29,024 nt of DNA, from positions 1-29,024 of the IMG/VR virus record IMGVR_UViG_3300034375_007271; one strand, given 5' to 3'. A program made the translations under genes and the position numbers. This stretch comes from a virus. Under the pieces are notes generated by a model. It worked only from the letters and a program-made list of their open reading frames with translations. It was not told the DNA's origin and searched no databases. Shown here piece by piece: positions 899 through 25,530 of this stretch (positions are counted from its first letter, which is position 1; each line of letters opens with the position of its first letter).

Positions 899-1308
899 AC
901 CCGGGAAAGAATGGAGGCATTGCAGTTTTTGCGGATGGGGTGATGCAAGCGTGGGCAATGCCAGATACAGAAGCGGATGTAGCCGAGCTGCTCTGGGACT
1001 TCGGCAGAGGTAAAGCATTTGCTCTATTAGAGAAGGTTCATTCCATGCCGAAGCAAGGGGTCAAGAGCACCTTTACCTTCGGACGAGGCTATGGCTTTCT
1101 GCGTGGAGTACTGACAGCGCAACGGACTCCTTTTGACGATGTCGCTCCGAGTACGTGGCAAAAAAGCCTCAGCTGTCTGACAAAGGGGGACAAGAATGTC
1201 ACCAAACAGAAAGCGCAGCAGCTCTTTCCTGACTTGCACATCACTCACAAGGTGGCAGATGCTATACTGATTTGCGAATACTGCAGGAGGACGTATGGGG
1301 ACTGTTAG
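868..1308 (+). CDS. RuvC-like Holliday junction resolvase
   Basis: This 146-residue protein has the RNase H-like fold of RuvC-type resolvases. It would cut four-way or branched DNA during recombination or before packaging. The first strand carries IIGIDPGKNGG with Asp11, the second acidic residue is Glu55 in FALLEKVH, and the last motif is HKVADAILICEY with Asp131. These match the metal-binding acidic set of the family. The middle FGRGYGFLRG and VAPSTWQKSL segments are typical of phage versions. The length is slightly shorter than bacterial RuvC. AAGGAG at 855-860 lies seven bases before ATG 868. It overlaps both neighbours, indicating one operon with the SSB-like gene. Confidence 0.88.
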   Translation: MGEQSKIIGIDPGKNGGIAVFADGVMQAWAMPDTEADVAELLWDFGRGKAFALLEKVHSMPKQGVKSTFTFGRGYGFLRGVLTAQRTPFDDVAPSTWQKSLSCLTKGDKNVTKQKAQQLFPDLHITHKVADAILICEYCRRTYGDC

Positions 1309-1516
1309 AAAGCGTTCGACTCGCAATTTATCTCAAGAGTTATTGAATAACGAAAAATACAGGCAAACTCAACGTGAGCTGAATGCTGCGAGAGAGCGTC
1401 TCATGGATAGTCATGGCTTAAACGGTAGCACAGTACAGGTCCTCAAGAAAAATGTAGTTCGATTAATGGCGGAGTTGGATAAGATAAAAAAAGAGGTACG
1501 AGATGGGGGACAATAA
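1295..1516 (+). CDS. Small coiled-coil protein of unknown function
   Basis: A 73-residue basic protein with no recognised family. Residues 12-36 and 47-70 are predicted by eye to be long charged helices, with a short Gly/Asn turn (HGLNGS) between them, so it may form a helical hairpin or dimer. The start is set by AGGAGG at 1285-1290, four bases before ATG. It overlaps the resolvase gene by 14 bases and the next gene by 14 bases, placing it firmly in the same operon. Confidence 0.65.
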   Translation: MGTVRKRSTRNLSQELLNNEKYRQTQRELNAARERLMDSHGLNGSTVQVLKKNVVRLMAELDKIKKEVRDGGQ

Positions 1517-1772
1517 AATTCGCTGTGGATATAGGTGGTTTGCTACTGACAAGATTTTCAAGTGGTTGGGGACTACAGACCCTATGCTTCCTGCCTGTAC
1601 TCTCCATGATGCTCTATATGATAACGCCGGCAGCTTAACGCGCAAGCAAGTCGATGACTTATTCCTCCGCCGTATGCTCGTAGAAGCTACAACAGTAAAT
1701 AGTAGCTGGATGAAAGCACAGGCTTACGTGTACTATGGACTAGCACGAGCCTTCGGCTGGCTGGTGTGGTGA
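1503..1772 (+). CDS. DUF1353-like small phage protein
   Basis: An 89-residue protein resembling DUF1353 phage proteins. It has Cys32 and the His35-Asp36 pair in ACTLHDALYD, then TRKQVDDLFLRRML (Arg47, Asp51/Asp52), and a C-terminal tyrosine-rich helix ending in ARAFGWLVW. This order (HD-x-x-Y, R-x-x-x-D, YxxxRxFG) is what I know of that family, whose biochemical role is unsettled. The His-Asp pair also recalls phospholipase A2-like proteins, which is the main alternative. Start ATG 1503 follows an AGAGG-like site. A strong hairpin with a T run follows the stop directly. Confidence 0.6.
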   Translation: MGDNKIRCGYRWFATDKIFKWLGTTDPMLPACTLHDALYDNAGSLTRKQVDDLFLRRMLVEATTVNSSWMKAQAYVYYGLARAFGWLVW

Positions 1773-1776
1773 TTTA

Positions 1777-1841
1777 TGGGAGGGGGTCGAGTCTTAGTAG
1801 TTTCTCCCAAGAACCTTTTTCGACTACCCTCCCACCTTTTT
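1777..1841 (+). terminator. Rho-independent terminator or attenuator, plus strand
   Basis: The arms at 1777-1790 and 1820-1834 pair over 8 + 5 base pairs (TGGGAGGG with CCCTCCCA, GTCGA with TCGAC) with a small internal loop. The terminal loop is 29 bases, and TTTTT follows at 1837-1841. It begins four bases after the stop of the DUF1353-like gene. Only 11 bases separate it from the next start codon, so the following gene must rely on readthrough unless a promoter overlaps the hairpin. Confidence 0.6.
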
Positions 1842-1852
1842 ACAGGTGACGT

Positions 1853-2137
1853 ATGGCTGATAAAAAAAAGAAAAAGAAAGACCCACCTCTTAACAAAGTT
1901 ATGCGTAACGAAGGTGGCAACAAGAAGTACAAAGTGTACGTACGGAATGAGAAGGGCAACATAGTCAAAGTCACGTTTGGTGACCCTGACATGGAGATAC
2001 GACGAGACAACCCTGCAGCGCGTAAAGCTTTCCGCGCTCGTCATAACTGCGACAATCCGGGTCCTAAAACGAAAGCCAAATATTGGGCGTGTAAGTTGTG
2101 GAGTACTAAAAGTGTCTCAGATATTTTAGACGATTAA
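1853..2137 (+). CDS. Small conserved-type phage protein with RARHxC...YWxCKxW motif
   Basis: A 94-residue basic protein. The N-terminus is a lysine run (coded partly by eight consecutive A at 1862-1869). Residues 23-45 look like a beta hairpin (KKYKVYVRNEKGN then VKVTFGDPDM). Residues 50-83 hold the striking motif RRDNPAARKAFRARHNC followed by YWACKLW, with His64, Cys66 and Cys80 able to bind a metal. I have seen this motif style in uncharacterised proteins of several phages but cannot name a function; links to head proteins or DNA binding are only possibilities. AGGTG at 1844-1848 may serve as ribosome binding site. It sits between two opposed terminator-like hairpins. Confidence 0.75.
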   Translation: MADKKKKKKDPPLNKVMRNEGGNKKYKVYVRNEKGNIVKVTFGDPDMEIRRDNPAARKAFRARHNCDNPGPKTKAKYWACKLWSTKSVSDILDD

Positions 2138-2168
2138 AAAGGGGCAGAGAGCAATAGCTCCCTACCCC
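2136..2168 (-). terminator. Rho-independent terminator, minus strand
   Basis: The inverted repeat 2141-2152 / 2157-2168 (GGGGCAGAGAGC, loop AATA, GCTCCCTACCCC) pairs at 10 of 12 positions. Read on the minus strand it is followed at once by TTTTT (2140-2136). There is no T run on the plus side, so it is oriented to stop leftward late transcription. It is the first good terminator after the last minus-strand gene, about 540 bases past that gene's stop. Confidence 0.6.
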
Positions 2169-2229
2169 ACGAGCACCAACATCTTGCTTAATAGCACTCG
2201 TATTGTAGGTTAAAATCTGAAAGGAGCCA

Positions 2230-2715
2230 ATGCACAAAGTTCCGTCAGTCTATGATTTTGAAACGCAACTCACAGTAGGCGAATCCTACGAAAAACTTCT
2301 TGACAGGTATTTCTCGCAATTCTTTAGAGTGTCAATAGTACCGCTGACGGTGCAAAAACTTGGGGTCGATAGGATATTCATCTTTAAAGGCACCCCTAAA
2401 CGAAGATTTACCGTGGAGTACAAAGCGGACATACGAGCTGCAGAAACTAAGCGCATCTTTGTCGAGATAGAATCAAATAGTAATACTGGTAAGCCGGGTT
2501 GGGCGTATAGCTCAGTTGCACAAATGTTAGTTTACTATATCCCTCCTTTGAAACGCGCAGCCATTGTAAATATGCTGACTCTACGAGAAACAATTCCTCA
2601 GTGGCTAAAGCAGTATGATAAAAAGATTTGCAATAACCCCACGTATCATAGCACTGGTGTGGTGGTGCCGTTGCACGAATTGAAAGCCATTGCTTCTCGT
2701 GTCGTTACGGTTTAG
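2230..2715 (+). CDS. PD-(D/E)XK nuclease-like protein
   Basis: A 161-residue protein with the layout of restriction-endonuclease-like (PD-(D/E)XK) folds. An N-terminal helix carries Glu18 and Glu21 (TVGESYEKLLDRYF), Asp47 lies in KLGVDRIFIF, and Glu63-Tyr-Lys65 in RFTVEYKAD. A further strand RIFVEIES is followed by KPGWAYSS. The Asp...Glu-x-Lys triad would coordinate the catalytic metal. Such phage proteins act in recombination, DNA processing or host DNA breakdown; I cannot tell which. AAAGGAG at 2220-2226 lies only three bases before ATG, which is close. The gene's 3' end overlaps the opposite-strand coiled-coil membrane gene by 11 bases, marking the convergence of the two modules. Confidence 0.6.
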   Translation: MHKVPSVYDFETQLTVGESYEKLLDRYFSQFFRVSIVPLTVQKLGVDRIFIFKGTPKRRFTVEYKADIRAAETKRIFVEIESNSNTGKPGWAYSSVAQMLVYYIPPLKRAAIVNMLTLRETIPQWLKQYDKKICNNPTYHSTGVVVPLHELKAIASRVVTV

Positions 2716-2995
2716 CCCCGTTGAATATTTTACTCTCCAGTCGAGATATCCTGATATTGAGCATGTTATATCGCTCCAAGATTAGCTGAGTATCCTTCTG
2801 AGCTTCCACTGCTGTATACCTATCTTGATTAACAATTCGTAGCTCTGATTTTAATTCTGCGATTTGCTGGGACATGTAATCGAAGCCAGCTTGTATGCGA
2901 GATGCCCACCAGATTGCACCAGCAGTGTGCAACGTCAAGAATAGTATGACTGCCCAGTTAAGACGCTGGACTTGTGTTACCGTTGCTTCCGTCAT
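2705..2995 (-). CDS. Membrane-anchored coiled-coil protein, possible inner-membrane spanin
   Basis: A 96-residue protein with one predicted transmembrane segment (about residues 12-31, NWAVILFLTLHTAGAIWWAS), a short polar N-terminus, and a long helical periplasmic-type region with heptad-like spacing (about 42-90). This is the architecture of inner-membrane spanins (T7 gp18.5 or lambda Rz type), which help disrupt the outer membrane in Gram-negative lysis. Its start lies inside the end of the endolysin gene (38-base overlap), supporting a lysis role. Other one-pass phage membrane proteins remain possible. It is the last gene of the minus-strand operon. Confidence 0.6.
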   Translation of the reverse strand: MTEATVTQVQRLNWAVILFLTLHTAGAIWWASRIQAGFDYMSQQIAELKSELRIVNQDRYTAVEAQKDTQLILERYNMLNIRISRLESKIFNGAKP

Positions 2996-12000: not shown

Positions 12001-12511
12001 GTGCAAGAATTGGCTTGATATAATTAACACTTGCAGCAACCCACAATGATTCCACGGTTATGCCAACAACTTCTGCGTCGCTTGGTACGTTAAAATTCAA
12101 ATTTTTTACAACAACATACTCTGTATAATAGTCAGCGCCAGCCGTGGGACAAATCGCAGTACAATAAAAGCCAGTAGTTAACAATGCAGATGTGTTTATC
12201 CAATTAATCCCAAATCCACTTGGTGCAAAAAAGGACGTGGTGTTTGTTGTCACCGTGTTTGGTAAAGAGAAGCTTGTATTAGTACTAGGAGCTGGACGAG
12301 AAAATACGTGACTATATAAGCCATGAAATGAATTTGTTGTGACAAAAGTCTGACTCTTAACGCCAGGTCGCTTAACTACAGAACCCTTTCTTGTAATCTC
12401 GACATTGGTAGCTTCATCAGCAAATTCTACAGGACGTGTAAGGTCATCAGCACCCTGATTGAGTCCTTTGAAATTGCTAAAGTTGCGTCGGATTCCACCG
12501 GGTGCGCTCAT
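9035..12511 (-). CDS. Large tail protein, probable nozzle (T7 gp12-like)
   Basis: An 1158-residue, beta-rich protein. The N-terminus (FKGLNQGADDLTRPVEFADE, then NVEITRKGSVVKRPG) has the Gly-rich and G-x-x-x-KRPG signature I associate with podovirus tail-tube/nozzle proteins such as T7 gp12. Around residues 780-900 are beta-propeller-like repeats (HQGLIIASGNPDDPETIYFED, VFKDNHYFNVVGD, TLLFPSNTGFKAIAG), also typical of that family. It is much longer than T7 gp12 (794 residues), with an inserted beta-rich region over roughly 80-500. Its place directly after the adaptor-like gene, joined by TAATG, supports the role of the tail tube end. Confidence 0.65.
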   Translation of the reverse strand: MSAPGGIRRNFSNFKGLNQGADDLTRPVEFADEATNVEITRKGSVVKRPGVKSQTFVTTNSFHGLYSHVFSRPAPSTNTSFSLPNTVTTNTTSFFAPSGFGINWINTSALLTTGFYCTAICPTAGADYYTEYVVVKNLNFNVPSDAEVVGITVESLWVAASVNYIKPILALTLDGGTTLETDIQLDNVPVTGLQELQIYGGKTDTLGIETLTPSIVNDSNFGVALRVIANAITSSPTGNVRLAYLKVAVNYRPAIDNSDTTKLFSFGKHLEEHSNGNIKIVYSPSGGGTPPPAKLFILPDTATGQYKVDLQINDLSIVGFPKYYDTDTAPALIKNLYDDINATADFYMEATPAGEVATTVTEQPYIHCPGHTFTDVDNVTIWSERYLTNTSRYILGSDYNYVRLDGNVSADAGTVMGIFNQLVASIPEQDGVLLPANDTTAGDIEVPWQVPTNNILTTNLYKIIQGETRFQPSTVFEEEPFVSAQTTHGVNDTNTSFVSKSSNIYFGLPFYINSGNLTQNGTTLTEENGGLWKHDGRDTYLAGMPSIPTPDSIVPVLSYGNDGMTASSTYKFKFQYCYRDYRGNFIEGPLSDEIAMQTSATQLNAVFTWNNPRAHRAPFAWRGVLPQSDIGGWVTIITDEIPGTDGGILIGNVLPGTEVALFNAGIAPFTGNFTTRIIADTDATPLGTTYYLDEPIRYMPAGGSLLTYKHHACLSQIRIRVWRTVADGSLFYFCCDLPAIRIPGETYAFFDGTADSDLGEPLIEPDRRPSLFPKISTLSTHQGLIIASGNPDDPETIYFEDQLIQESSPASTSSFQVVGSQSSGAVTAHASDNDDMLAVFKDNHYFNVVGDLDSLSFQVLEVSKGQYGCSAHAAIAKVNNTLLFPSNTGFKAIAGGQLITDFNDVFVDDFLGNEYTQSVGQAIATENQDKFVLRRATATYFPETQQYVCFIPCESGVVGFEGSREPNENSRVFVLHLKQQAWTKWQMSPDLNMAGGVTVHRDELYWAARRYNESTYAMMWGKLYRQRNDGTSIDFLDETQPIEMRLRMTWDSLDNPSDYFVPVFLKLYQFNNEDFLTAFDLTVKEYRNYNENTVYTQASRTFSTAADKEKRLKFKNGRASSISLEFYNNTAQQKPVLTGYEYEVRNPYLPRIKAGRNR

Positions 12512-13461
12512 TAGAAAAGTATCTCACTATCAAGAACAGGGAAGTCTTTTACATCCTCATCCATGTCCCCAAAACTATCTACGATATCTGCTTTCATTAC
12601 CTGCAACATTGCTAACTCATCTTGCCAATCTGACGACGAGTCTAATTTCAATGCTAAAACGGTTCCATAGCTGACTAAAAACCGTTCGCAGTTTACTGGC
12701 AGTTCTGAATGTGTACTTGTATATTTCCCAACTGTGATAAAATCATCTGTAGTAATTCCAGCATTGTTAGTGCGGAGATGATTAATACCAGAAAAAACAC
12801 CAGTTCCTGAATCATAGGACGTATATGAAATATTATATTCCTTAACATTTCCGTCCTTGTCACAAATACACAGATACTTGTCGCCAATATTGCTGATAAG
12901 ATTAGGTAAGTCATCGGCAGTTCCTATAGTAAGAGCACTAATAGTACCGTTGTCCGTTATCGCACTGATTTGACCTGCCCGTAACGCTAGCCTGTCAGCT
13001 TCTCTATAATACTCAACACGAATCTTACCAACTCCTATTGTCGGAATTGGATTCAACAATATCTTCCCTGACCTGCGGATGTACCAACTTGGATGACTAG
13101 TAATATCTGTAAATCTGTCTCGTAGAGGACGTGGTGGCAATCGGTAGTAGTCAATTGCATTTCCAGTAGAAGTGTATTGAACTGAAATAAGTCTGTTATT
13201 GACAAAGACGTTGTCAGGAATTGAATATTCTTCTTGATTAGCAACTACATTGATTTCTTTACTGACAACGAACTCGACAGGATGTGCATTGATTATAGCA
13301 CTCTGAATATGCGTCTGCCCTTCATTGACAAATTCAATGAGCTGCTGATTGCCAACGCCCTCTACTACATCTTCAATAGAGGATGTGCCACTACCAATCG
13401 TATATTCTTGGTTGTGGCTGCGCTCCCGTACAGATGTCAGTAAATCACCAACGTATCTCAT
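12511..13461 (-). CDS. Head-tail adaptor / tail tubular protein A-like
   Basis: A 316-residue protein. Residues 38-60 form helices (QLIEFVNEGQTHIQSAII), followed by NQEEYSIPDNVFVNNRLISVQY, YYRLPPRPLRDRF, SWYIRRSGKILLNPIP and KIRVEYYREADRLAL. This helix-then-beta pattern is that of podovirus adaptors (T7 gp11, P22 gp4-like), which bind the portal and carry the nozzle. It is longer than those because of an inserted beta domain (about 165-250). It is linked by TAATG overlaps to both neighbours, which fits stoichiometric production with the nozzle. Confidence 0.7.
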   Translation of the reverse strand: MRYVGDLLTSVRERSHNQEYTIGSGTSSIEDVVEGVGNQQLIEFVNEGQTHIQSAIINAHPVEFVVSKEINVVANQEEYSIPDNVFVNNRLISVQYTSTGNAIDYYRLPPRPLRDRFTDITSHPSWYIRRSGKILLNPIPTIGVGKIRVEYYREADRLALRAGQISAITDNGTISALTIGTADDLPNLISNIGDKYLCICDKDGNVKEYNISYTSYDSGTGVFSGINHLRTNNAGITTDDFITVGKYTSTHSELPVNCERFLVSYGTVLALKLDSSSDWQDELAMLQVMKADIVDSFGDMDEDVKDFPVLDSEILF

Positions 13462-13794: not shown

Positions 13795-15777
13795 TTACCT
13801 CTCCTTAGACTTCTCTACTCCAGCTGGAATCTTAGGTGCCTTTGGTTGTACTGGCGCTTTTGGCGCTTTATATGTCACCTTCGGCAACTCACGTTTCTTA
13901 TATTTTATCTTCTTTAGTGGCTTTACTGGCGGTAGTGGTGTTACTGGCGGCGGTCCGAAAGACGGGAACGCACCCATCCCTGCACTAGGCGCAGCGTACC
14001 CTGTAACAGGTATCCCTTCCATCCTTTGGCTACCGTCCGATATAGGTATCGAGTTGCCATACCTATCTTCCACGATGACATTTTGAAACGCTCCTCCGGG
14101 TCTATCAAATCGAATAGTATCCGCAAATCCGTTGCTTGGACCTGAAGACTGTCCTACCGCAAGTACTTGTCCAGTGTTGGCATCTCTAATCGTTACTTCA
14201 CCAACTGGATATGGGAATAACATTACAAGATTGCCATCCCTTTCAGAGTTTGGCTTCCACAAAGCTTGTCCTTGTACCTGCTGATAACCTGCTTGTTCTG
14301 CACGAGCTGCTGCTTGTTGCTTTAGTTCTCCAGCCATCATCTGTCTGTGCTCTTCCGCTCGCTGAGCATCCACTTGAGCATCCATTGATGGGTCCCAAAC
14401 TATGCCATTAGCTTGAGCATAAGCAGCTCTGTCTTGCATTCGTTGTTCATCTGAAATGGCAGGAACATACGTACCTTGCTTGACCTGATACCCAATTTCT
14501 TGAATACGAGCTAGGTGACCACGCTTTCCACTAAAGAGAACTGAACCTTTGTCAGTGCTCAGTAAATTTTCACGTAATGCAGCCTCAGAAATAATTCTCC
14601 TTTCTTGCTCGGTCCATCCAGTCAACCAGTCTGGAAACGCCTCAAAGAATGCATACTCACCCCAGACATCTTCTCCACGACCCATGCCATTGATGTCTTG
14701 TAGGTTCCACTTTCTACCAGCAAGAGGTCCCTCTTCCCAAATGGGTGGTTTACCAGATTGCTTTTGTTCTATGACTCGGTCCATCTGACGAGCTGCCCAC
14801 TTTTGCTCTTCTGGACTAGCAGCGTTCTCCATGGCTGAGGTCCAACGGTCTATTTGATATTGTGTGGTCGAGCGACCACCAACAAGACCTAACGACTCAC
14901 CTAGACTAGCAACACCTCTACCAACAGTTCGACCAATGACAGAACCAATCCCAGCACCCATCCAGCCACCATAAATAGCACCAACAGCAGTTCCAATACC
15001 AGTGAACACGCCTTCAACAGCACCTTTGCCACGTCTACTACCGCTGGCAATATTTTGTATGGCATCGGTAACATTATATGCAGCAACAGCTCCACCAACG
15101 ACGTTTCCAGCCGTAGTTAATGCGCCAGTCTCAGCTCCCATTGGAGCGTTCCACGCAGCTTGTGTTTCAGGCGTTGCCATAGACAAGTCTGTCGCAATTT
15201 GACCAGCACTAACAGGTGTGTAGCCAGCAGTCACACCGCTAGTTCCAACACCTGTGCTCCCGGGATATATAATTTCAGCAAGAGCTTTGAGACCTTCTGA
15301 TGTTGTTTCTATGCCTAGTTGGCTCTTGATTTCATCTTTTGCTATATCAAGTGCAACGTCCTTACCAAACTCCGTTAGTATCTCGCCTGTATCAGGACTC
15401 GCAACTTGAAGAGGTTCCTCTTGTTGAGCAGGTTCTTCGGCAACACGACTCATTATTTGCGATTGTCCAGTAGGAGCACTGACAGGTTGCTGCATCGGCG
15501 CAGGAGCTTGCCTAGTAGTGTCCAATACACTTGGTTGGCTTAATACTGTTTGAGGAGCCTCAACACCAACTAACGGTTGAGCTGGTTGAGGAGCTGCAGG
15601 AATAACAGCTTGTCTAGCTGCAGGTTGTCCCGTGTAAAACGCAACTTCATCATAAAACCGTTGCATGTTTGAGGGAGTAGTAGACTGTCCCTGAAATGCA
15701 GATACTGGTGCCATCGTTTGTGTTGGCATCATACTCGCATCTACATATCGTCCCGTCCTAGCATCATATTGAAGCAT
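13795..15777 (-). CDS. Large internal virion protein with glycine-zipper segment and WKP domain
   Basis: A 660-residue multidomain protein. Residues 50-125 are Pro/Gln-rich and disordered. Residues 222-300 are Gly/Ala-rich with small-residue spacing that suggests a membrane-inserting glycine zipper (AVGAIYGGWMGAGIGSVIG). Residues 310-500 are helical. Residues 506-580 form a beta domain beginning LWKPNSERDGNLVMLFP, homologous to one in the exported protein at 25054-25530. Residues 610-660 are Pro/Lys-rich and strongly basic, suited to DNA binding. Together this suggests an ejected protein that contacts both DNA and host envelope, which is inference. It overlaps the coiled-coil gene upstream by one base (TAATG). 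Confidence 0.65.
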   Translation of the reverse strand: MLQYDARTGRYVDASMMPTQTMAPVSAFQGQSTTPSNMQRFYDEVAFYTGQPAARQAVIPAAPQPAQPLVGVEAPQTVLSQPSVLDTTRQAPAPMQQPVSAPTGQSQIMSRVAEEPAQQEEPLQVASPDTGEILTEFGKDVALDIAKDEIKSQLGIETTSEGLKALAEIIYPGSTGVGTSGVTAGYTPVSAGQIATDLSMATPETQAAWNAPMGAETGALTTAGNVVGGAVAAYNVTDAIQNIASGSRRGKGAVEGVFTGIGTAVGAIYGGWMGAGIGSVIGRTVGRGVASLGESLGLVGGRSTTQYQIDRWTSAMENAASPEEQKWAARQMDRVIEQKQSGKPPIWEEGPLAGRKWNLQDINGMGRGEDVWGEYAFFEAFPDWLTGWTEQERRIISEAALRENLLSTDKGSVLFSGKRGHLARIQEIGYQVKQGTYVPAISDEQRMQDRAAYAQANGIVWDPSMDAQVDAQRAEEHRQMMAGELKQQAAARAEQAGYQQVQGQALWKPNSERDGNLVMLFPYPVGEVTIRDANTGQVLAVGQSSGPSNGFADTIRFDRPGGAFQNVIVEDRYGNSIPISDGSQRMEGIPVTGYAAPSAGMGAFPSFGPPPVTPLPPVKPLKKIKYKKRELPKVTYKAPKAPVQPKAPKIPAGVEKSKER

Positions 15778-16154
15778 TACTTTATTCCAGCTCTAGTCTG
15801 AGAAACAATATTCGCTAAAGCACCAGTGACATCCTGCGCCGTTCCTCGACTCATCTTCTGTTGTTCCATCATTTGTTGAGCTTCAAACTCACGGTCTTCA
15901 GCTGCAGCAATTTGTGCATTTAAAGCTTTAATTGCTAAATCAATCTGCATTTCTTGCCGTTGCAATTCTAAATCAGCCATATCTTTTGCGCGTTTTCTTG
16001 CTATTTCCTCACGTTGGACCTCAAGCTTTTCTCTCTCAGTTTTTAACTCATCCGCAGCAGTCTGCTGCGTGAGAATAGCCTTACCACCCGACGACAAAAG
16101 TGTAGGTGCGTTTTTAATTAACGAATCTAAAAACTTGTCGAGATAGTCCGCCAT
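15777..16154 (-). CDS. Coiled-coil minor virion protein
   Basis: A 125-residue protein. A short amphipathic N-terminus (DYLDKFLDSLIKNAP) precedes a long charged helix with heptads (about 33-98, rich in Glu, Gln, Lys and Arg), and then a Gly/Ala-containing C-terminal helix. No family recognised. Small coiled-coil proteins beside internal proteins are common in podoviruses (comparable in size to T7 gp14 or P22 gp7 fragments), so a head-internal or ejected role is a guess. It has TAATG junctions with both neighbours. Confidence 0.6.
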   Translation of the reverse strand: MADYLDKFLDSLIKNAPTLLSSGGKAILTQQTAADELKTEREKLEVQREEIARKRAKDMADLELQRQEMQIDLAIKALNAQIAAAEDREFEAQQMMEQQKMSRGTAQDVTGALANIVSQTRAGIK

Positions 16155-16519
16155 TATCTGTACATCCCTTGTAAGAACACACTACCAGTAGTGCAGGTTT
16201 CTCCAGATACTTTCTGCAACTTCACTTGAGAGGTCAGCTGCCCACCATTTTCACCGAAGCGTACGTCATACGTTACGCCGGCGAGAACAACCACTTCAGG
16301 AGCATTTGTTGCATCCGTGAACTCAATCTGTACATCACAGTCTGTTTGGTTAGCTACGGTCACCATAAGCCAAGACTTACTCGTCAATTTGGCTGCATAC
16401 GAAGCAGCCACACTGGCAGCTGCAGTCGTTGATAACGCAGTCAAAAATCGTGGCTGGCTCTGCCCCCAAGCAACAACAGGAACTAGAATAACTAAAGCGT
16501 ATGCAAGTAGAAGTCTCAT
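16154..16519 (-). CDS. Protein with N-terminal signal peptide inside the head gene cassette
   Basis: A 121-residue protein. Residues 1-19 form a clean Sec-type signal (basic MR, hydrophobic LLLAYALVILVPVVA, likely cut after AWG). The rest is beta-rich with Cys61 and Cys109, which could form a disulfide outside the cytoplasm, and ends in SVFLQGMYR. The mature part resembles small all-beta phage surface proteins. Being joined by TAATG to flanking structural genes, it must be expressed in step with virion proteins, yet it is predicted to leave the cytoplasm. The hydrophobic end may instead serve a virion function. No family recognised. Confidence 0.65.
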   Translation of the reverse strand: MRLLLAYALVILVPVVAWGQSQPRFLTALSTTAAASVAASYAAKLTSKSWLMVTVANQTDCDVQIEFTDATNAPEVVVLAGVTYDVRFGENGGQLTSQVKLQKVSGETCTTGSVFLQGMYR

Positions 16520-17559
16520 TAGAATATATCCTCCGAATCAGAGCCGAATATCAAGAAATTGAGATATGCAGGGTCTTGAGCTGCTGCTAGCTCATCCGTA
16601 ACTTCCAACGTAACTGCTGTAGCACTATTCGCCTTAACAGACACCCAGCTATGTGTATCCGTGTCAGCTGCCGATGCAACTACAATAGGAGTGCGAGCAA
16701 ACGCCTCATCAAATGTTATTGTTAGCTCACCTTGCGCTACATCCGTCAACGTGAACTCACCAGTCCCAATCGTGATTGCTGGTACTCCAGCAGTATACGT
16801 GACTTTGCCAGCTACCAGTCTAGGCTTTCGATGCCTTGCCATTACAAGACCACCCTTCTGCAAGGTGTAATCTGAGCTGTCATGGAATCCTAATGCTACG
16901 AAGTTAAATGCTGCATCCGCTGCTGCTTCGCTGTCATCGAAAGTTAAAATGTTTGTAGTCGTTTCACTAACGGACTCAACTCGTAATGCATAACCATCAG
17001 TAGTAGCATTAAAAGGAGTAGCCACTACAATAGGATTTGCCCCAAAGCCCGGAGTAAACGTAATGGTATAGTCACCCGTACCATTCTTAGTGACAGTGAA
17101 TTCTCGTCCACCAATAGTCACAGCACCAGCACTACTGACTTGTCCTACAACTACTTCTGAAATTTTTCTAGTGCTACGAACGTCAAATAAACGTCCATTT
17201 TTGTTACCACTACGTCGAGTCTCAGCTGTTTCATGCCCATAGACCAAGCTATGTGCCTGACCTACATCAGCTGCTCCACTGCCATCGACCGTAGCAACTC
17301 CTCCTGCTGTTGCGGTAGCAGTCGCCTTGACAGCTGCTACACCACCATCAGCAACACCTGCGCCAGCACATACAACCTGTACTGGAGTAGTACCAAAAGC
17401 ATGTGTGTAAGTATGGTCTAAAATATTATCACTGCTTGCGTTTGTAAAAGTAGCTTCACCAGCGCCTTGCTGTACTGTGTTATTCGCAGCTGCTGCTGTT
17501 GTCGCAGTGAATCCTAGTAATCTTGCGTTTAAAAAGCCTGTCTGAAGAGGTCGTAACAT
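16519..17559 (-). CDS. Repeat-containing capsid decoration or head-fibre candidate
   Basis: A 346-residue beta-rich protein with three related units. Two are clear: residues 132-226 and 246-342, both with ITF...PIVVA, a middle strand, and a FNFVALGF / LNFLIFGS end. One is weaker (about 30-108). The F-x-x-x-F-x-x-x-PIVVA pattern and the closing hydrophobic strand are reminiscent of H-type-lectin-like domains in phage structural proteins, which would give sugar binding. It is the first gene after the capsid gene and its terminator, the usual site for decoration proteins. Readthrough of that terminator would lower its level relative to capsid protein. Confidence 0.6.
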   Translation of the reverse strand: MLRPLQTGFLNARLLGFTATTAAAANNTVQQGAGEATFTNASSDNILDHTYTHAFGTTPVQVVCAGAGVADGGVAAVKATATATAGGVATVDGSGAADVGQAHSLVYGHETAETRRSGNKNGRLFDVRSTRKISEVVVGQVSSAGAVTIGGREFTVTKNGTGDYTITFTPGFGANPIVVATPFNATTDGYALRVESVSETTTNILTFDDSEAAADAAFNFVALGFHDSSDYTLQKGGLVMARHRKPRLVAGKVTYTAGVPAITIGTGEFTLTDVAQGELTITFDEAFARTPIVVASAADTDTHSWVSVKANSATAVTLEVTDELAAAQDPAYLNFLIFGSDSEDIF

Positions 17560-17610: not shown

Positions 17611-18825
17611 CTAAGCGCTGAGGCTATGAATTACACCGTGAAAAGGCGGTGCAATATAGTTCTCATAGTAACCACCGTAACGCGCTTCATACTCGTCACT
17701 GTCTGCTACTCGTAGGAACACAGTTCCATCATCGTCAAACCATCCAAACCCGGGTCTGTGGTAAGAACGCATGAAGTTGTCATTAAGAACATAGAAGAGG
17801 TCTTCGCGGACAAATCTGTCTGGGAATACTCCAATAGGTCCTTGAGTTGTCATAACTTCAACACCTCGGAAAGAGATAACACCCTTCATAGCATCTGATT
17901 GATACCGTGGTGGGAGGTTATATCTCTTCTGGTCCTCAAGTTGATTGATGAGCTTACGGAACTGAGTGTAAGAACAAAGCGCCATGTTTGGTGTTTGTCC
18001 AGACTCTTCCTCAACGCTCAATACAATCTGATTGATGAGGTCGGGTGTGATAGTTGCGCTAGATGCATCAATCTGTTGAGCAACGTATGGGTCTGCGATA
18101 GAAACACCATACTTTGTTCCAGAAGTTGCAAGTACTACTCCACGAAGACCCTGTGGAACATTGTTTTCAGAACCCTGCATGAAGATAACATCAGTAGCTG
18201 CTGGAACTTGAGTAGCACCAGAAGCTCGCTGTACGCTAACAGTCTTTGTAGACTTATTAACAGCTGTTATTTCGAAAAGGTCTGTATTACCAGTTTCAAT
18301 GTTTACAAAGTCTCTTTTAGAGAAGTTTGCAGCAATCCATGTAGCGTCAGTGATGGTTAAATCATAATCACCACCACCATTATCAACGACACTAGAAACA
18401 GTTCCTAATGCACCAGTTCCATCACCGTGAAGGATGATAGAAGCCCATCGGTTAAAAGACTCGACAGTCTTTCTTACTGTTTCAGCAGTGTTCTTGAAGA
18501 ATGCACCCTCGTCTGATGCAGCAGCCTTGATAGACTCTCTGTCATACAATGCTCGAGCGTATACCTTCTTCGCTGTGAAGTTGACATCTTCGACTTCACC
18601 GACGTTAGCTTCAGGAAGACTTCCTGCACCAACACCACCTTGGAAAGATAGCTCCATAGGGAACTCCATCTTCTTTCCAACAAAGTCGTACGATTTTTTG
18701 ATTCGCCCAAGGGCGACGTTAGCTGAGTTGTATGCGTTCTCAGACCGCTTACCATACTTAATCTTATAAAGATTGGTGAGGTCGGTCAGGTTAAACGCAG
18801 TTTCAGCTGCATTTCCAGTAGCCAT
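17611..18825 (-). CDS. Major capsid protein (HK97 fold)
   Basis: A 404-residue protein. The first 135 residues have the arm and E-loop plus long spine helix pattern (KKVYARALYDRESIKA, then VRKTVESFNRWASIIL). Residues about 140-215 are a beta-rich insertion that may form a surface knob. The C-terminal half has ITPDLINQIVLSVEEESGQ and NMALCSYTQFRKLINQL, then strands with VMTTQGPIGVFPDRF, ending in YYENYIAPPFHGVIHSL. This matches phage capsid proteins of the portal-scaffold-capsid order; size is close to P22 gp5 (430). GGAGG at 18833-18837 is seven bases from ATG and lies inside a hairpin. A terminator follows. Confidence 0.9.
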   Translation of the reverse strand: MATGNAAETAFNLTDLTNLYKIKYGKRSENAYNSANVALGRIKKSYDFVGKKMEFPMELSFQGGVGAGSLPEANVGEVEDVNFTAKKVYARALYDRESIKAAASDEGAFFKNTAETVRKTVESFNRWASIILHGDGTGALGTVSSVVDNGGGDYDLTITDATWIAANFSKRDFVNIETGNTDLFEITAVNKSTKTVSVQRASGATQVPAATDVIFMQGSENNVPQGLRGVVLATSGTKYGVSIADPYVAQQIDASSATITPDLINQIVLSVEEESGQTPNMALCSYTQFRKLINQLEDQKRYNLPPRYQSDAMKGVISFRGVEVMTTQGPIGVFPDRFVREDLFYVLNDNFMRSYHRPGFGWFDDDGTVFLRVADSDEYEARYGGYYENYIAPPFHGVIHSLSA

Positions 18826-22457: not shown

Positions 22458-23905
22458 TCAAACTCCGTATCATCAAATATATTAATATCTTTACCAAACA
22501 TGATATCCGATTGCTGTCTCCATGCCATCATGTCCTGCTCAAGAGTCACGTATCGTTTCCTCTCTTCTGGCTCTGGCGCAACATCTTCATTTATTTCATA
22601 CCGACTACACGTCAATAAGTACCGAAAACAGTCTATTAAGTGGTCATCTTTTTTTGGTATTCTTCCCCTTTCGTCTCGTACATAATTCTCCAGTTCCCAC
22701 ATCAGATTCTCGCATCGGTCGCTTATGGTAAGGAGATTCTTGACCCGAGCCACGTCCTTCAACATACTGATGCCAAGCTCTTTGTCCGCAGCAAATTTTC
22801 CTGCTGGCTGACAATAAACCCCATATCGACTCAAGACTTCGTTCCCGAACCATGCTGCTGCGTCGTCATAATATACACGCCAAGCACCTTCTCTCGCGTG
22901 AAAATGCTTCGCTTTACTTACTACCGTCGTCCAGATGTGGTCTGTACTCGTCTTATATTGGTCTTTCTCGTAGATTTCGTCTAGCAGATAAATTTGAGAG
23001 GAATATGGGTCGATAGCTGCAAATAACCCAGCAAAACAGGTCGCAGTACCGGGGTCGAGGATAATATAATACTCCAGCTTACCTTCATGATTGTCTAATA
23101 GTTGTTGAACATGGAAATCAGGCTTCATGTGCTCTGTACGAGTGATATTAGGAACAACCCGACTTCTACCCCCAAATGCCAGCTCCGCCTCATATTCGCG
23201 TAACCAGCGCTCTTTATCGCCTCGTTCGTAATACTTACGCTTCTCCGTATTCAGCCACTTATGCGCCTCCGCCTCGTCTTTAATACCAGCTACAAATGGG
23301 TTCTCCCACGCCGTGCCATGGATATGCGCCCAGTCGTTATCACCTTTAATGTCGTTCAATAGCTGCACGTAGAAGTTGTCGGGGTAGTCAGGAGGAGTAC
23401 CGATGCAAATTAAAACACCGTTTAGGGAACGTAGGTTCGGATAGGCAGCATCGTAGAAACGAGGGTCTTGGTCTTTCATCTCATCAAGTATCATCGCGTG
23501 ATACTCGGTCCCTCGATAGGCTTCGTAGTTTTCCGACCCATCAACCTTGATAAACCCATTGTTCAGCTTAATACGCAGCTCAGAGTCCATTATCTGCTCT
23601 ACGTACTCCTCTGGTCCAAAGTTCTTAAGACGACCATTCTGCCACATAATCTCCTTCTGCTGCTTCTGCGAAGGACCAATAATATAAACTTGAGGGTTGT
23701 CTGTGGTAAGAGCTATCCGCCATGCGATATACATGCATAACTCTGTTTTACCGAATTTGCGTCCAGCACGTATGAATAAGCGTTTTTTCTTATCCCGAAA
23801 TATCGCCCTTCCTGCTTTCAGTTGCCCCGGATGAGGCTCCCACTTCGCATTCAGTTTCTGTATCCGTTGCGCCAGCTCCAACGGTGCTAATTTCGTATTC
23901 GACAT
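22451..23905 (-). CDS. terL: Terminase large subunit (packaging ATPase-nuclease)
   Basis: This 484-residue motor pumps DNA into the procapsid and cuts the concatemer. The ATPase part has Walker A RAGRKFGKTE (46-55), Walker B AMILDE (137-142, with Asp141 and catalytic Glu142) and the coupling-type motif LICIGTP (165-171). The RNase H-like nuclease part has Asp284 in YYIILDPGTA, Asp347/Asp348 in VYYDDAAAW, and Asp421/Asp425 in KDDHLIDCFRY. All expected residues are present. The start at 23905 is required because Walker A lies only 46 residues in and PHPGQ (25-28) is a normal N-terminal motif; the ribosome binding site is weak. It overlaps the small subunit gene by 116 bases. Confidence 0.96.
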   Translation of the reverse strand: MSNTKLAPLELAQRIQKLNAKWEPHPGQLKAGRAIFRDKKKRLFIRAGRKFGKTELCMYIAWRIALTTDNPQVYIIGPSQKQQKEIMWQNGRLKNFGPEEYVEQIMDSELRIKLNNGFIKVDGSENYEAYRGTEYHAMILDEMKDQDPRFYDAAYPNLRSLNGVLICIGTPPDYPDNFYVQLLNDIKGDNDWAHIHGTAWENPFVAGIKDEAEAHKWLNTEKRKYYERGDKERWLREYEAELAFGGRSRVVPNITRTEHMKPDFHVQQLLDNHEGKLEYYIILDPGTATCFAGLFAAIDPYSSQIYLLDEIYEKDQYKTSTDHIWTTVVSKAKHFHAREGAWRVYYDDAAAWFGNEVLSRYGVYCQPAGKFAADKELGISMLKDVARVKNLLTISDRCENLMWELENYVRDERGRIPKKDDHLIDCFRYLLTCSRYEINEDVAPEPEERKRYVTLEQDMMAWRQQSDIMFGKDINIFDDTEFEW

Positions 23906-24491
23906 TCTTATGCTCTATCTTTTTCATTTTCGCAGACTCAATGGCATCAGCAAATTCTTGGAATGGGTCTTCTTTTAATATCATTCGGATTTGAGCACGT
24001 TGCTCTCGAATAGTTAATTGTTGCGTAATCTCAGTAGGCTTGCCATCCTCTGTACGACTCACTTTCTGCATCGAGACAATAATGTCAGATAGCTTCTTTA
24101 ACTCGTCCCATGCTAGTTCTTCATCACGAGAAAGCTTCTTCTGTATTTGTTCATTAAATAACGTCTGCGCTAAGTTCTGTGCAATAGCAGCATTATTGCC
24201 TATCTGCCCCCACGACTGCTGATATACCTTCTTAAATATATCAGCTCGCTTACTAACCCACTTACCACTATCAACCCAACCACTAATAACGCGAGCTTCT
24301 AAACCCATGCGTTCTGCAATCGCGGACACGTCGTGTCCTAAAAGATATAAAGACAACGCTTTGTCTTTAACTTCTGGCATGTAAGCAAAACCATTCATGT
24401 GTTTTTCAACCTCTTGTTGCAAATACAATAATTGCGTGGTGGGTAGTTTTCCGGGTTTTTTCCTTTTTTTATTAGGATTAATTTTTGGCAT
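23790..24491 (-). CDS. terS: Probable terminase small subunit
   Basis: A 233-residue protein placed directly before the large subunit. Residues 1-14 are very basic. Residues 40-78 form a helix-turn-helix (DKALSLYLLGHDVSAIAERM, then a recognition helix and GWVDSGKW), as in small terminases that bind the packaging site. Residues 100-195 are helical, suited to oligomerisation, with IREQRAQIRMILKED. The last 38 residues are Thr/Glu/Gly-rich and are encoded in the region shared with the large subunit gene. It overlaps the preceding small gene by 14 bases. Identity rests on HTH plus position. Confidence 0.8.
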   Translation of the reverse strand: MPKINPNKKRKKPGKLPTTQLLYLQQEVEKHMNGFAYMPEVKDKALSLYLLGHDVSAIAERMGLEARVISGWVDSGKWVSKRADIFKKVYQQSWGQIGNNAAIAQNLAQTLFNEQIQKKLSRDEELAWDELKKLSDIIVSMQKVSRTEDGKPTEITQQLTIREQRAQIRMILKEDPFQEFADAIESAKMKKIEHKNVEYEISTVGAGATDTETECEVGASSGATESRKGDISG

Positions 24492-24787: not shown

Positions 24788-25021
24788 CTACTTTATGATT
24801 CCTTTAATCGGCTTAGTAGCTCTCCAACGCCCAACTAATGCAACGCACTGTTGAACAACCGCCACTACGGTCACGGTCGCAAACGTCTTAGTCTCAGCTA
24901 ACAATTCTGGTGGAATTGATGCCCATACATCTTTCAGCATCTTTAACATGCCGAGCAAACTACCAATACTTGTAATGCTGCCCCAGACACCCATACTTTT
25001 AATTGCAGGTTTTGTTTTCAT
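24788..25021 (-). CDS. Holin-like membrane protein
   Basis: A 77-residue protein with two predicted membrane helices, about 11-30 (GVWGSITSIGSLLGMLKMLK) and 47-65, joined by a short polar loop. It ends in LVGRWRATKPIKG, the GR-x-x-A-x-xPI ending common in phage holins of this size. It would form the inner-membrane lesion that releases the endolysin. I use ATG 25021 because CAGGAG (25033-25028) sits six bases upstream; the longer reading from 25096 adds 25 charged residues and overlaps the upstream gene by 43 bases. It is the neighbour of a lipoprotein gene, consistent with lysis. Confidence 0.68.
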   Translation of the reverse strand: MKTKPAIKSMGVWGSITSIGSLLGMLKMLKDVWASIPPELLAETKTFATVTVVAVVQQCVALVGRWRATKPIKGIIK

Positions 25022-25053: not shown

Positions 25054-25530
25054 CTAATCTTGCCTTTTTCGAGGCTTCGCTACTTGCCATGTGCACAGCT
25101 GACTAGGATTAGCACCAAAGGCTTCAACAACACCAGTGTATTGCCCACCCCTTAACTGCGCTCTCCATGTCTGCCTATTGCCATTGCTAAAACCTGTAAA
25201 GTTCATGTTCTCATATTGTCCCGTCTTACGCTGCACCGTAACTGTGTTGAACGGTGACCGAAACTCCTCGGGAAACAAAACAACCAAAGCTCCGCTGTGG
25301 TCTCCCTCTGGCTTCCACAGGAATTTACCCGGTCCATCCGTACCCATTATCTGGCTACAAATTGGGTTCATCTCGAGATTAGGTGTCGGTAAGGGAGTCG
25401 GTTCTGATGTCGGTTCAGAAGAAGGTTGGGGTGCAGGAACACACTGTATAGTCCCGTTCGAAGTCTCTCTACAAATATTATTCCCACAACCCAAGCTAAA
25501 TATTAGCAAAACCAATGTTAGTGCTCTCAT
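25054..25530 (-). CDS. Exported lipoprotein-like protein with WKP domain
   Basis: A 158-residue protein. Residues 1-14 are a signal peptide (MRALTLVLLIFSLG) followed by Cys15, a plausible lipid attachment site though the -3 position is Ser rather than Leu. Residues 32-50 are a Pro/Ser/Thr linker (PAPQPSSEPTSEPTPLPTP). Residues 69-155 are a beta domain starting FLWKPEGDHSGALVVLFP with FSNG and RGGQYTGVVEAFG, which matches residues 506-580 of the large internal virion protein. Next to the holin gene, an outer-membrane spanin role fits the architecture, but the WKP domain is not usual for spanins; a surface or superinfection role is the alternative. AGGAGG lies six bases before ATG. Confidence 0.7.
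   Translation of the reverse strand: MRALTLVLLIFSLGCGNNICRETSNGTIQCVPAPQPSSEPTSEPTPLPTPNLEMNPICSQIMGTDGPGKFLWKPEGDHSGALVVLFPEEFRSPFNTVTVQRKTGQYENMNFTGFSNGNRQTWRAQLRGGQYTGVVEAFGANPSQLCTWQVAKPRKRQD

Follow-up and report, generated by a model that had tools for sequence, protein, structure and literature searches.

The window, by which we mean the whole 29,024-nucleotide stretch of viral DNA that was analysed, carries two minus-strand genes whose products share a stretch of similar sequence, one for a 660-residue protein encoded among virion genes and one for a 158-residue lipoprotein encoded next to a holin-like gene. We termed the shared element the WKP domain. Its two copies and the genes that mark their positions are as follows:

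14014–14271, minus strand: WKP copy 1 (profile E = 2.7e-15; AlphaFold2 mean pLDDT 93.0)
13795–15777, minus strand: 660-residue virion-module protein, between the major capsid gene and the adaptor
17611–18825, minus strand: major capsid protein (phrog_14242, E = 1.3e-20), the upstream landmark of the copy 1 slot
12511–13461, minus strand: presumed adaptor/structural gene (weak match to the phrog_399 structural protein), the downstream landmark of the copy 1 slot
25057–25329, minus strand: WKP copy 2 (profile E = 1.3e-21; AlphaFold2 mean pLDDT 86.7)
25054–25530, minus strand: 158-residue lipoprotein, consisting of a signal with presumed lipid-bearing Cys15, a Pro-rich linker and the WKP domain
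24788–25021, minus strand: holin-like gene (weak match to the phrog_1356 holin, E = 0.01), directly downstream of the lipoprotein gene
23790–24491, minus strand: presumed small terminase gene, from gene order and because its homologues precede the large terminase gene in relatives

A preliminary description of this DNA had noted copy 1 at 14038–14262, which corresponds exactly to residues 506–580 of the 660-residue protein on the minus strand; the full extent of the domain is residues 503–588, and copy 2 spans residues 68–158 of the lipoprotein. The two proteins match each other in BLASTP with E = 9e-7, and the local alignment of copy 1 with copy 2, at about 35% identity, has a score of 88 that none of 5000 shuffles reached (mean 24.4, maximum 52). 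A profile of 37 homologues, from which the window and its near relatives had been left out, found only two matches in the open frames of the window, namely the two copies, at the E-values listed above and thus at a similarity far above chance. Both copies are also present, at corresponding places, in the related contig L004. Judged by their sequences, the two copies are homologous and belong to one domain family of about 85–90 residues. The homology claimed in the preliminary description is therefore real, as BLASTP, the shuffles and the independent profile agree, while two details of the motif given there are slightly off: the position written as Asp or Arg is His in copy 2, and the end of copy 2 reads GGQYTGVVE rather than GG-x-Y-x-x-V-V-VE.

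The predicted structures agree as well, the model of copy 1 being all-β with eight strands and that of copy 2 being all-β with the strands in the same order. Fold searches with both models returned no significant neighbour in the PDB (best E-values 0.37 and 0.055, TM-scores about 0.3–0.4) and nothing significant among viral models, where two uncultured-phage models, A0A6J5MYV4 and A0A6J5M538, had a probability of 1.0 at E-values of 0.05 and 0.22. The terms β-sandwich and Ig-like are used here for the shape of the predicted domain and not for membership in a family. Neither a ligand nor a catalytic site was found, and because these and a confident PDB fold neighbour are missing, the case for a binding function is built on the location of the module in its carrier proteins. 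The near-invariant features of the family are LWKP, G-x-LV-x-L-x-P, Asn-Gly, two Arg residues and a late Gly, giving the motif LWKP...LVxLxP...NGxR...R. Both copies retain LWKP, G-x-LV-x-L-x-P, the Asn and the C-terminal Arg. In copy 1 the Trp, Lys, Asn and C-terminal Arg are Trp507, Lys508, Asn549 and Arg585, and in copy 2 they are Trp72, Lys73, Asn116 and Arg156. The Arg of NG-x-R, which occurs in 89% of the family, is retained in copy 2 as Arg119 and replaced in copy 1 by Ala552.

Copy 1 is internal to its protein and is followed by a Lys/Pro-rich tail of about 72 residues. It is 93% identical between the window and L004, compared to 63% for the rest of the 660-residue protein, and its dN/dS in the same comparison is about 0.06 versus 0.23 for the rest. 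Within the window/L004 clade, copy 1 is under strong purifying selection and is the best-conserved part of its protein. The gene lies among virion genes, and its product may be the internal, ejected virion protein that the preliminary description took it for, judging by its place in the gene order, by a stretch rich in glycine and by weak similarity to a tape-measure protein (E = 0.011). Homologues of the presumed adaptor gene downstream are found in 16 loci, the window counted.

Two further minus-strand genes of the virion module were noted. A 121-residue protein (16154–16519), located in the middle of the module and conserved in L004, has a strong signal peptide (...VVAWGQSQP) and no Pfam match. 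A 346-residue protein (16519–17559) adjoining the capsid gene weakly matches an H-type lectin (E = 0.0011), possibly in repeated form.

The description of the other carrier as an exported lipoprotein is supported. The lipobox at its presumed lipid-bearing Cys15 departs from the consensus, reading SLGC here and FIGC in the L004 protein. The L004 orthologue is 62% identical overall; within it, the domain is 67% identical and the rest 55%, with synonymous changes near saturation. The lipoprotein gene is followed by two small genes and then the small terminase gene. The first of the small genes is the holin-like gene, whose listed open reading frame opens at 25096 and whose likely start, at 25021, lies 32 bases from the end of the lipoprotein gene; it has orthologues in L004 and L095, and the terminase genes come after it. 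As the lipoprotein gene adjoins holin-like and terminase genes, gene order suggests that it is expressed late. In other phages, WKP lipoproteins adjoin genes for lysozyme, DUF1353, lipase or transmembrane coiled-coil proteins, the neighbours in L021, for example, being a DUF1353 gene, a lysozyme gene and a transmembrane protein gene. Given these lysis-type and terminase neighbours, here and elsewhere, an accessory role in the late lysis phase is likelier than early exclusion of other phages, so that of the two roles offered in the preliminary description, release fits the late gene position better than exclusion does.

At the other end of the window, an 89-residue protein (1503–1772, plus strand) has a sub-threshold DUF1353 match (E = 2.2e-4), and DUF1353-type genes are found near the WKP lipoproteins of L021 and L013 as well. 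A 96-residue protein (2705–2995, minus strand) with an N-terminal transmembrane segment and a coiled coil is encoded by a gene that overlaps a phage-lysozyme-type endolysin gene; its topology is i-spanin-like, and no lipoprotein gene neighbours it. Positions 1–250, where the contig ends, contain low-complexity GGTCGWGGTCG-like repeats, one frame of which is the V/E-rich N-terminus of an SSB-like protein.

Family members were located with DNA patterns for the LWKP...LVxL core, a search that found the domain in about 30 uncultured viral contigs. Their WKP proteins have the following architectures:

Lipoproteins: the window, L004, L013, L015, L017, L019, L021, L054, L147, L150 and L154
gp5-like central spike with a C-terminal WKP domain: L023 (Pfam Gp5_OB and Gp5_trimer_C, then WKP), with look-alike spikes in L014, L148, L152 and L156
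Proteins of virion genes: the 660-residue protein of the window, and a 530–562-residue protein in L155 and L161
458-residue protein: L149, L158 and L162

In the podovirus-like contigs L155 and L161, the gene for the WKP-ended protein comes behind that for the major capsid protein and ahead of a tail/adaptor gene, which is the copy 1 slot. The lipoprotein gene of L154 lies one gene upstream of the small terminase, large terminase and portal genes, which is close to the order around copy 2. The window proteins that were compared show no resemblance to those of L154, L155 and L161 apart from the WKP-bearing ones, and since these unrelated phages carry WKP in the same places, both slots have been filled more than once. 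A virion copy and a lipoprotein copy do not occur together in any viral contig beyond the window/L004 clade. The contigs with a single kind include some of 32–58 kb that have the lipoprotein copy and some of 73–235 kb that have the virion copy, although these may be fragments.

As WKP stands at the C-terminus of gp5-like spikes and of proteins that are long and flexible, it could also be a passive folding or oligomerisation cap that has no ligand. We regard this as quite unlikely, as WKP is also found on lipoproteins that have no fibrous body, and its near-invariant residues include polar ones (Lys, Asn, Arg), as expected of a binding face.

The domain is not restricted to viruses. It was found in 30 bacterial genome stretches labelled Kiritimatiellae, Myxococcales, Bdellovibrionales, Planctomycetota, Armatimonadetes and others. 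In one GTDB phylum (L036, L045 and L055–L094, from genomes G004–G053), 42 of 46 genomes have it, in one to eight copies each; under a stricter E-value cut-off and with the seed genomes counted, it is present in 6 of 57 genomes of Kiritimatiellia and in 2 of the 119 genomes from the planctomycete phylum. The protein C-terminus is at most 12 residues from the end of the domain in 57 of the 60 bacterial rows. In bacteria, the domain is joined to lipoproteins, to exported repeat proteins that may be FG-GAP/VCBS propellers, and to proteins of about 300 residues that have no evident signal peptide. The last of these recur in the WKP-rich phylum (EEELFAxLIQER...AAQLDDNxxALYDGRGG), and the two examples scanned have no significant Pfam match. 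An exception to the C-terminal rule is the bacterial contig L030, which encodes two WKP proteins, one of them with the domain near its N-terminus and 477 residues behind it. A portal resembling that of the window, sought for host assignment in the 46 genomes of the WKP-rich phylum, gave no match in a search run without a positive control.

Pfam, PHROGs and NCBIfam contain no relevant match to the WKP domain, and PDB sequences contain none; tblastn with several domain queries found no match among 50,697 records of cultured phages or among 72,556 of plasmids, and a text search of the literature for the motif found no paper. A Pfam PT repeat on the lipoprotein linker and CHS5/DUF matches fell under the cut-off and were dismissed as chance. 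By these searches, WKP is an undescribed module, absent from the domain libraries covered yet widespread. The preliminary observation was real but more general than supposed: WKP is a mobile domain.

Because WKP nearly always forms the last ~90 residues, and on several unrelated partners per genome, some with no evident signal peptide, it could act as a C-terminal targeting or secretion signal akin to the type IX C-terminal domains, in which case the phage lipoprotein would reach the cell surface by means of WKP. This, too, is quite doubtful: virion proteins that need no export carry the domain, it is internal in the 660-residue protein, it is combined with lipoprotein signals, and NCBIfam models of type IX C-terminal sorting domains do not match it.

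An alternative role for the lipoprotein is that of an o-spanin-type lysis factor with its lipid in the outer membrane and its domain in the periplasm, acting after the endolysin, WKP being merely structural. The Pro-rich tether, the adjoining holin-like gene and the lysis-type neighbours in other phages point this way, as does the overlap of the 2705–2995 gene with the endolysin gene; furthermore, separated o-spanins can contain β structure and unusual lipoboxes, FVGC being one (PMC6139136). However, the i-spanin-like gene stands unpaired at a distance of about 22 kb, the neighbour of the lipoprotein gene being the holin-like gene instead, no spanin family gave a match, and WKP is also part of exoproteins of bacteria and spikes of phages, which have no role in fusion. 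We therefore consider an o-spanin unlikely.

In a tree of 74 rows, copy 2 is sister to the bacterial lipoproteins L075 and L077 (97/91), followed by that of phage L017, whereas copy 1 groups with L046, L083 and phage L021 (99/91). A bacterial lipoprotein composed of a signal, a low-complexity linker, WKP and a CSRFG end is encoded in 10 of the 46 genomes of the WKP-rich phylum, among unrelated genes, and we infer that copy 2 probably derives from the lineage of such a lipoprotein. Neither copy was found in more than 30 other relatives by capsid, many of these contigs being fragments, which suggests that the window/L004 clade gained both locally. Separate recruitment of the two copies by this phage lineage is favoured, not proven. 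An origin of one copy from the other by recent duplication is disfavoured by their low identity and their different nearest relatives, though an AU test with both copies forced into one clade does not reject it (p = 0.30). One of the capsid relatives, L095, encodes a subtilase (1090–2493, plus strand; Peptidase_S8, E = 2.4e-52) that has a signal of the lipoprotein type.

The preliminary description had suggested that the two copies may share one envelope target, which the lipoprotein could occupy so as to keep further phage out or to help release. Help with release could consist in freeing progeny from debris, and T5 Llp would be a functional parallel. The common domain and predicted fold speak for such a model, as do the extra Cys residues of copy 2, which could form disulphides, and the precedent of an outer-membrane lipoprotein that excludes phage, T5 Llp bound to FhuA (PMC9586334). 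As the model makes the pair matter as a pair, the two copies would be expected to recur together, but no contig outside the window/L004 clade pairs them. In addition, (i) the conserved Arg is replaced by Ala552 in copy 1, (ii) the copies stand on different branches, though a single clade is not rejected, (iii) gene position suggests late expression of the lipoprotein, and (iv) T5 Llp blocks by allostery from the periplasmic side and not through a domain that it shares with the receptor-binding protein. A shared target and a block to superinfection are thus not supported, and we judge the model quite unlikely.

Our preferred reading, to which we assign a probability of roughly one half, is that WKP is a promiscuous, shuffled β-sandwich module for display or binding that this phage lineage took up twice. 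The module would normally form the C-terminus of a protein exposed outside the cytoplasm, where it would serve for display or for binding to a common component of the envelope or the extracellular space. In copy 1, the module would be presented by the virion and act on the cell surface or within the envelope. In copy 2, the lipid would anchor it to the outer membrane, with the Pro-rich tether placing the domain away from the membrane during late infection, and the lipoprotein may be an accessory part of the lysis/release phase. The internal position of copy 1 and the several bacterial carriers with no evident signal peptide weigh against this reading. A more specific version, which we consider rather unlikely, holds that WKP binds one widespread component of the bacterial envelope, that bacteria use it on their own surface proteins, and that phages captured it for spike or virion docking and for late lipoproteins acting on the same component at release.

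With WKP present in about 30 viral contigs and in almost every genome of one bacterial phylum, its absence from the domain libraries and cultured-phage records covered marks an annotation gap that can be closed now. Its occurrence on spikes and exported host proteins offers a testable handle on phage attachment in unculturable bacteria, and the lipoprotein link is a possible host lead for the phages of such bacteria.

Among known systems, T5 Llp and T1 Cor are, like the window lipoprotein, phage-encoded lipoproteins expected in the outer membrane. T5 Llp acts on its receptor FhuA from the periplasmic side, by allostery (PMC9586334). The window lipoprotein differs in having a ~90-residue domain common to a virion-module protein and a gene in a presumed late region, and it matches no phage protein family in PHROGs or NCBIfam. 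It resembles lambda Rz1 and T4 PseT.2 in being a lipoprotein with a Pro-rich tether encoded near a lysis-type gene, but its large globular domain also occurs in bacteria and in spikes, and it has neither a neighbouring i-spanin nor a family match. With Ig-like and other small β-sandwich display domains, WKP shares its size, the predicted all-β sandwich, promiscuous end fusions on virion and surface proteins and a patchy distribution; it differs from them in its own motif and in having no Pfam, PHROG, NCBIfam or significant PDB fold match. Finally, the standalone SH3 domain of Drexlerviridae lysis modules (PMC13164509) is likewise a small accessory of wall-binding type in a lysis cassette, widespread but not universal, although the two domains are unrelated and WKP copy 2 is lipid-anchored and common to a virion-module protein.
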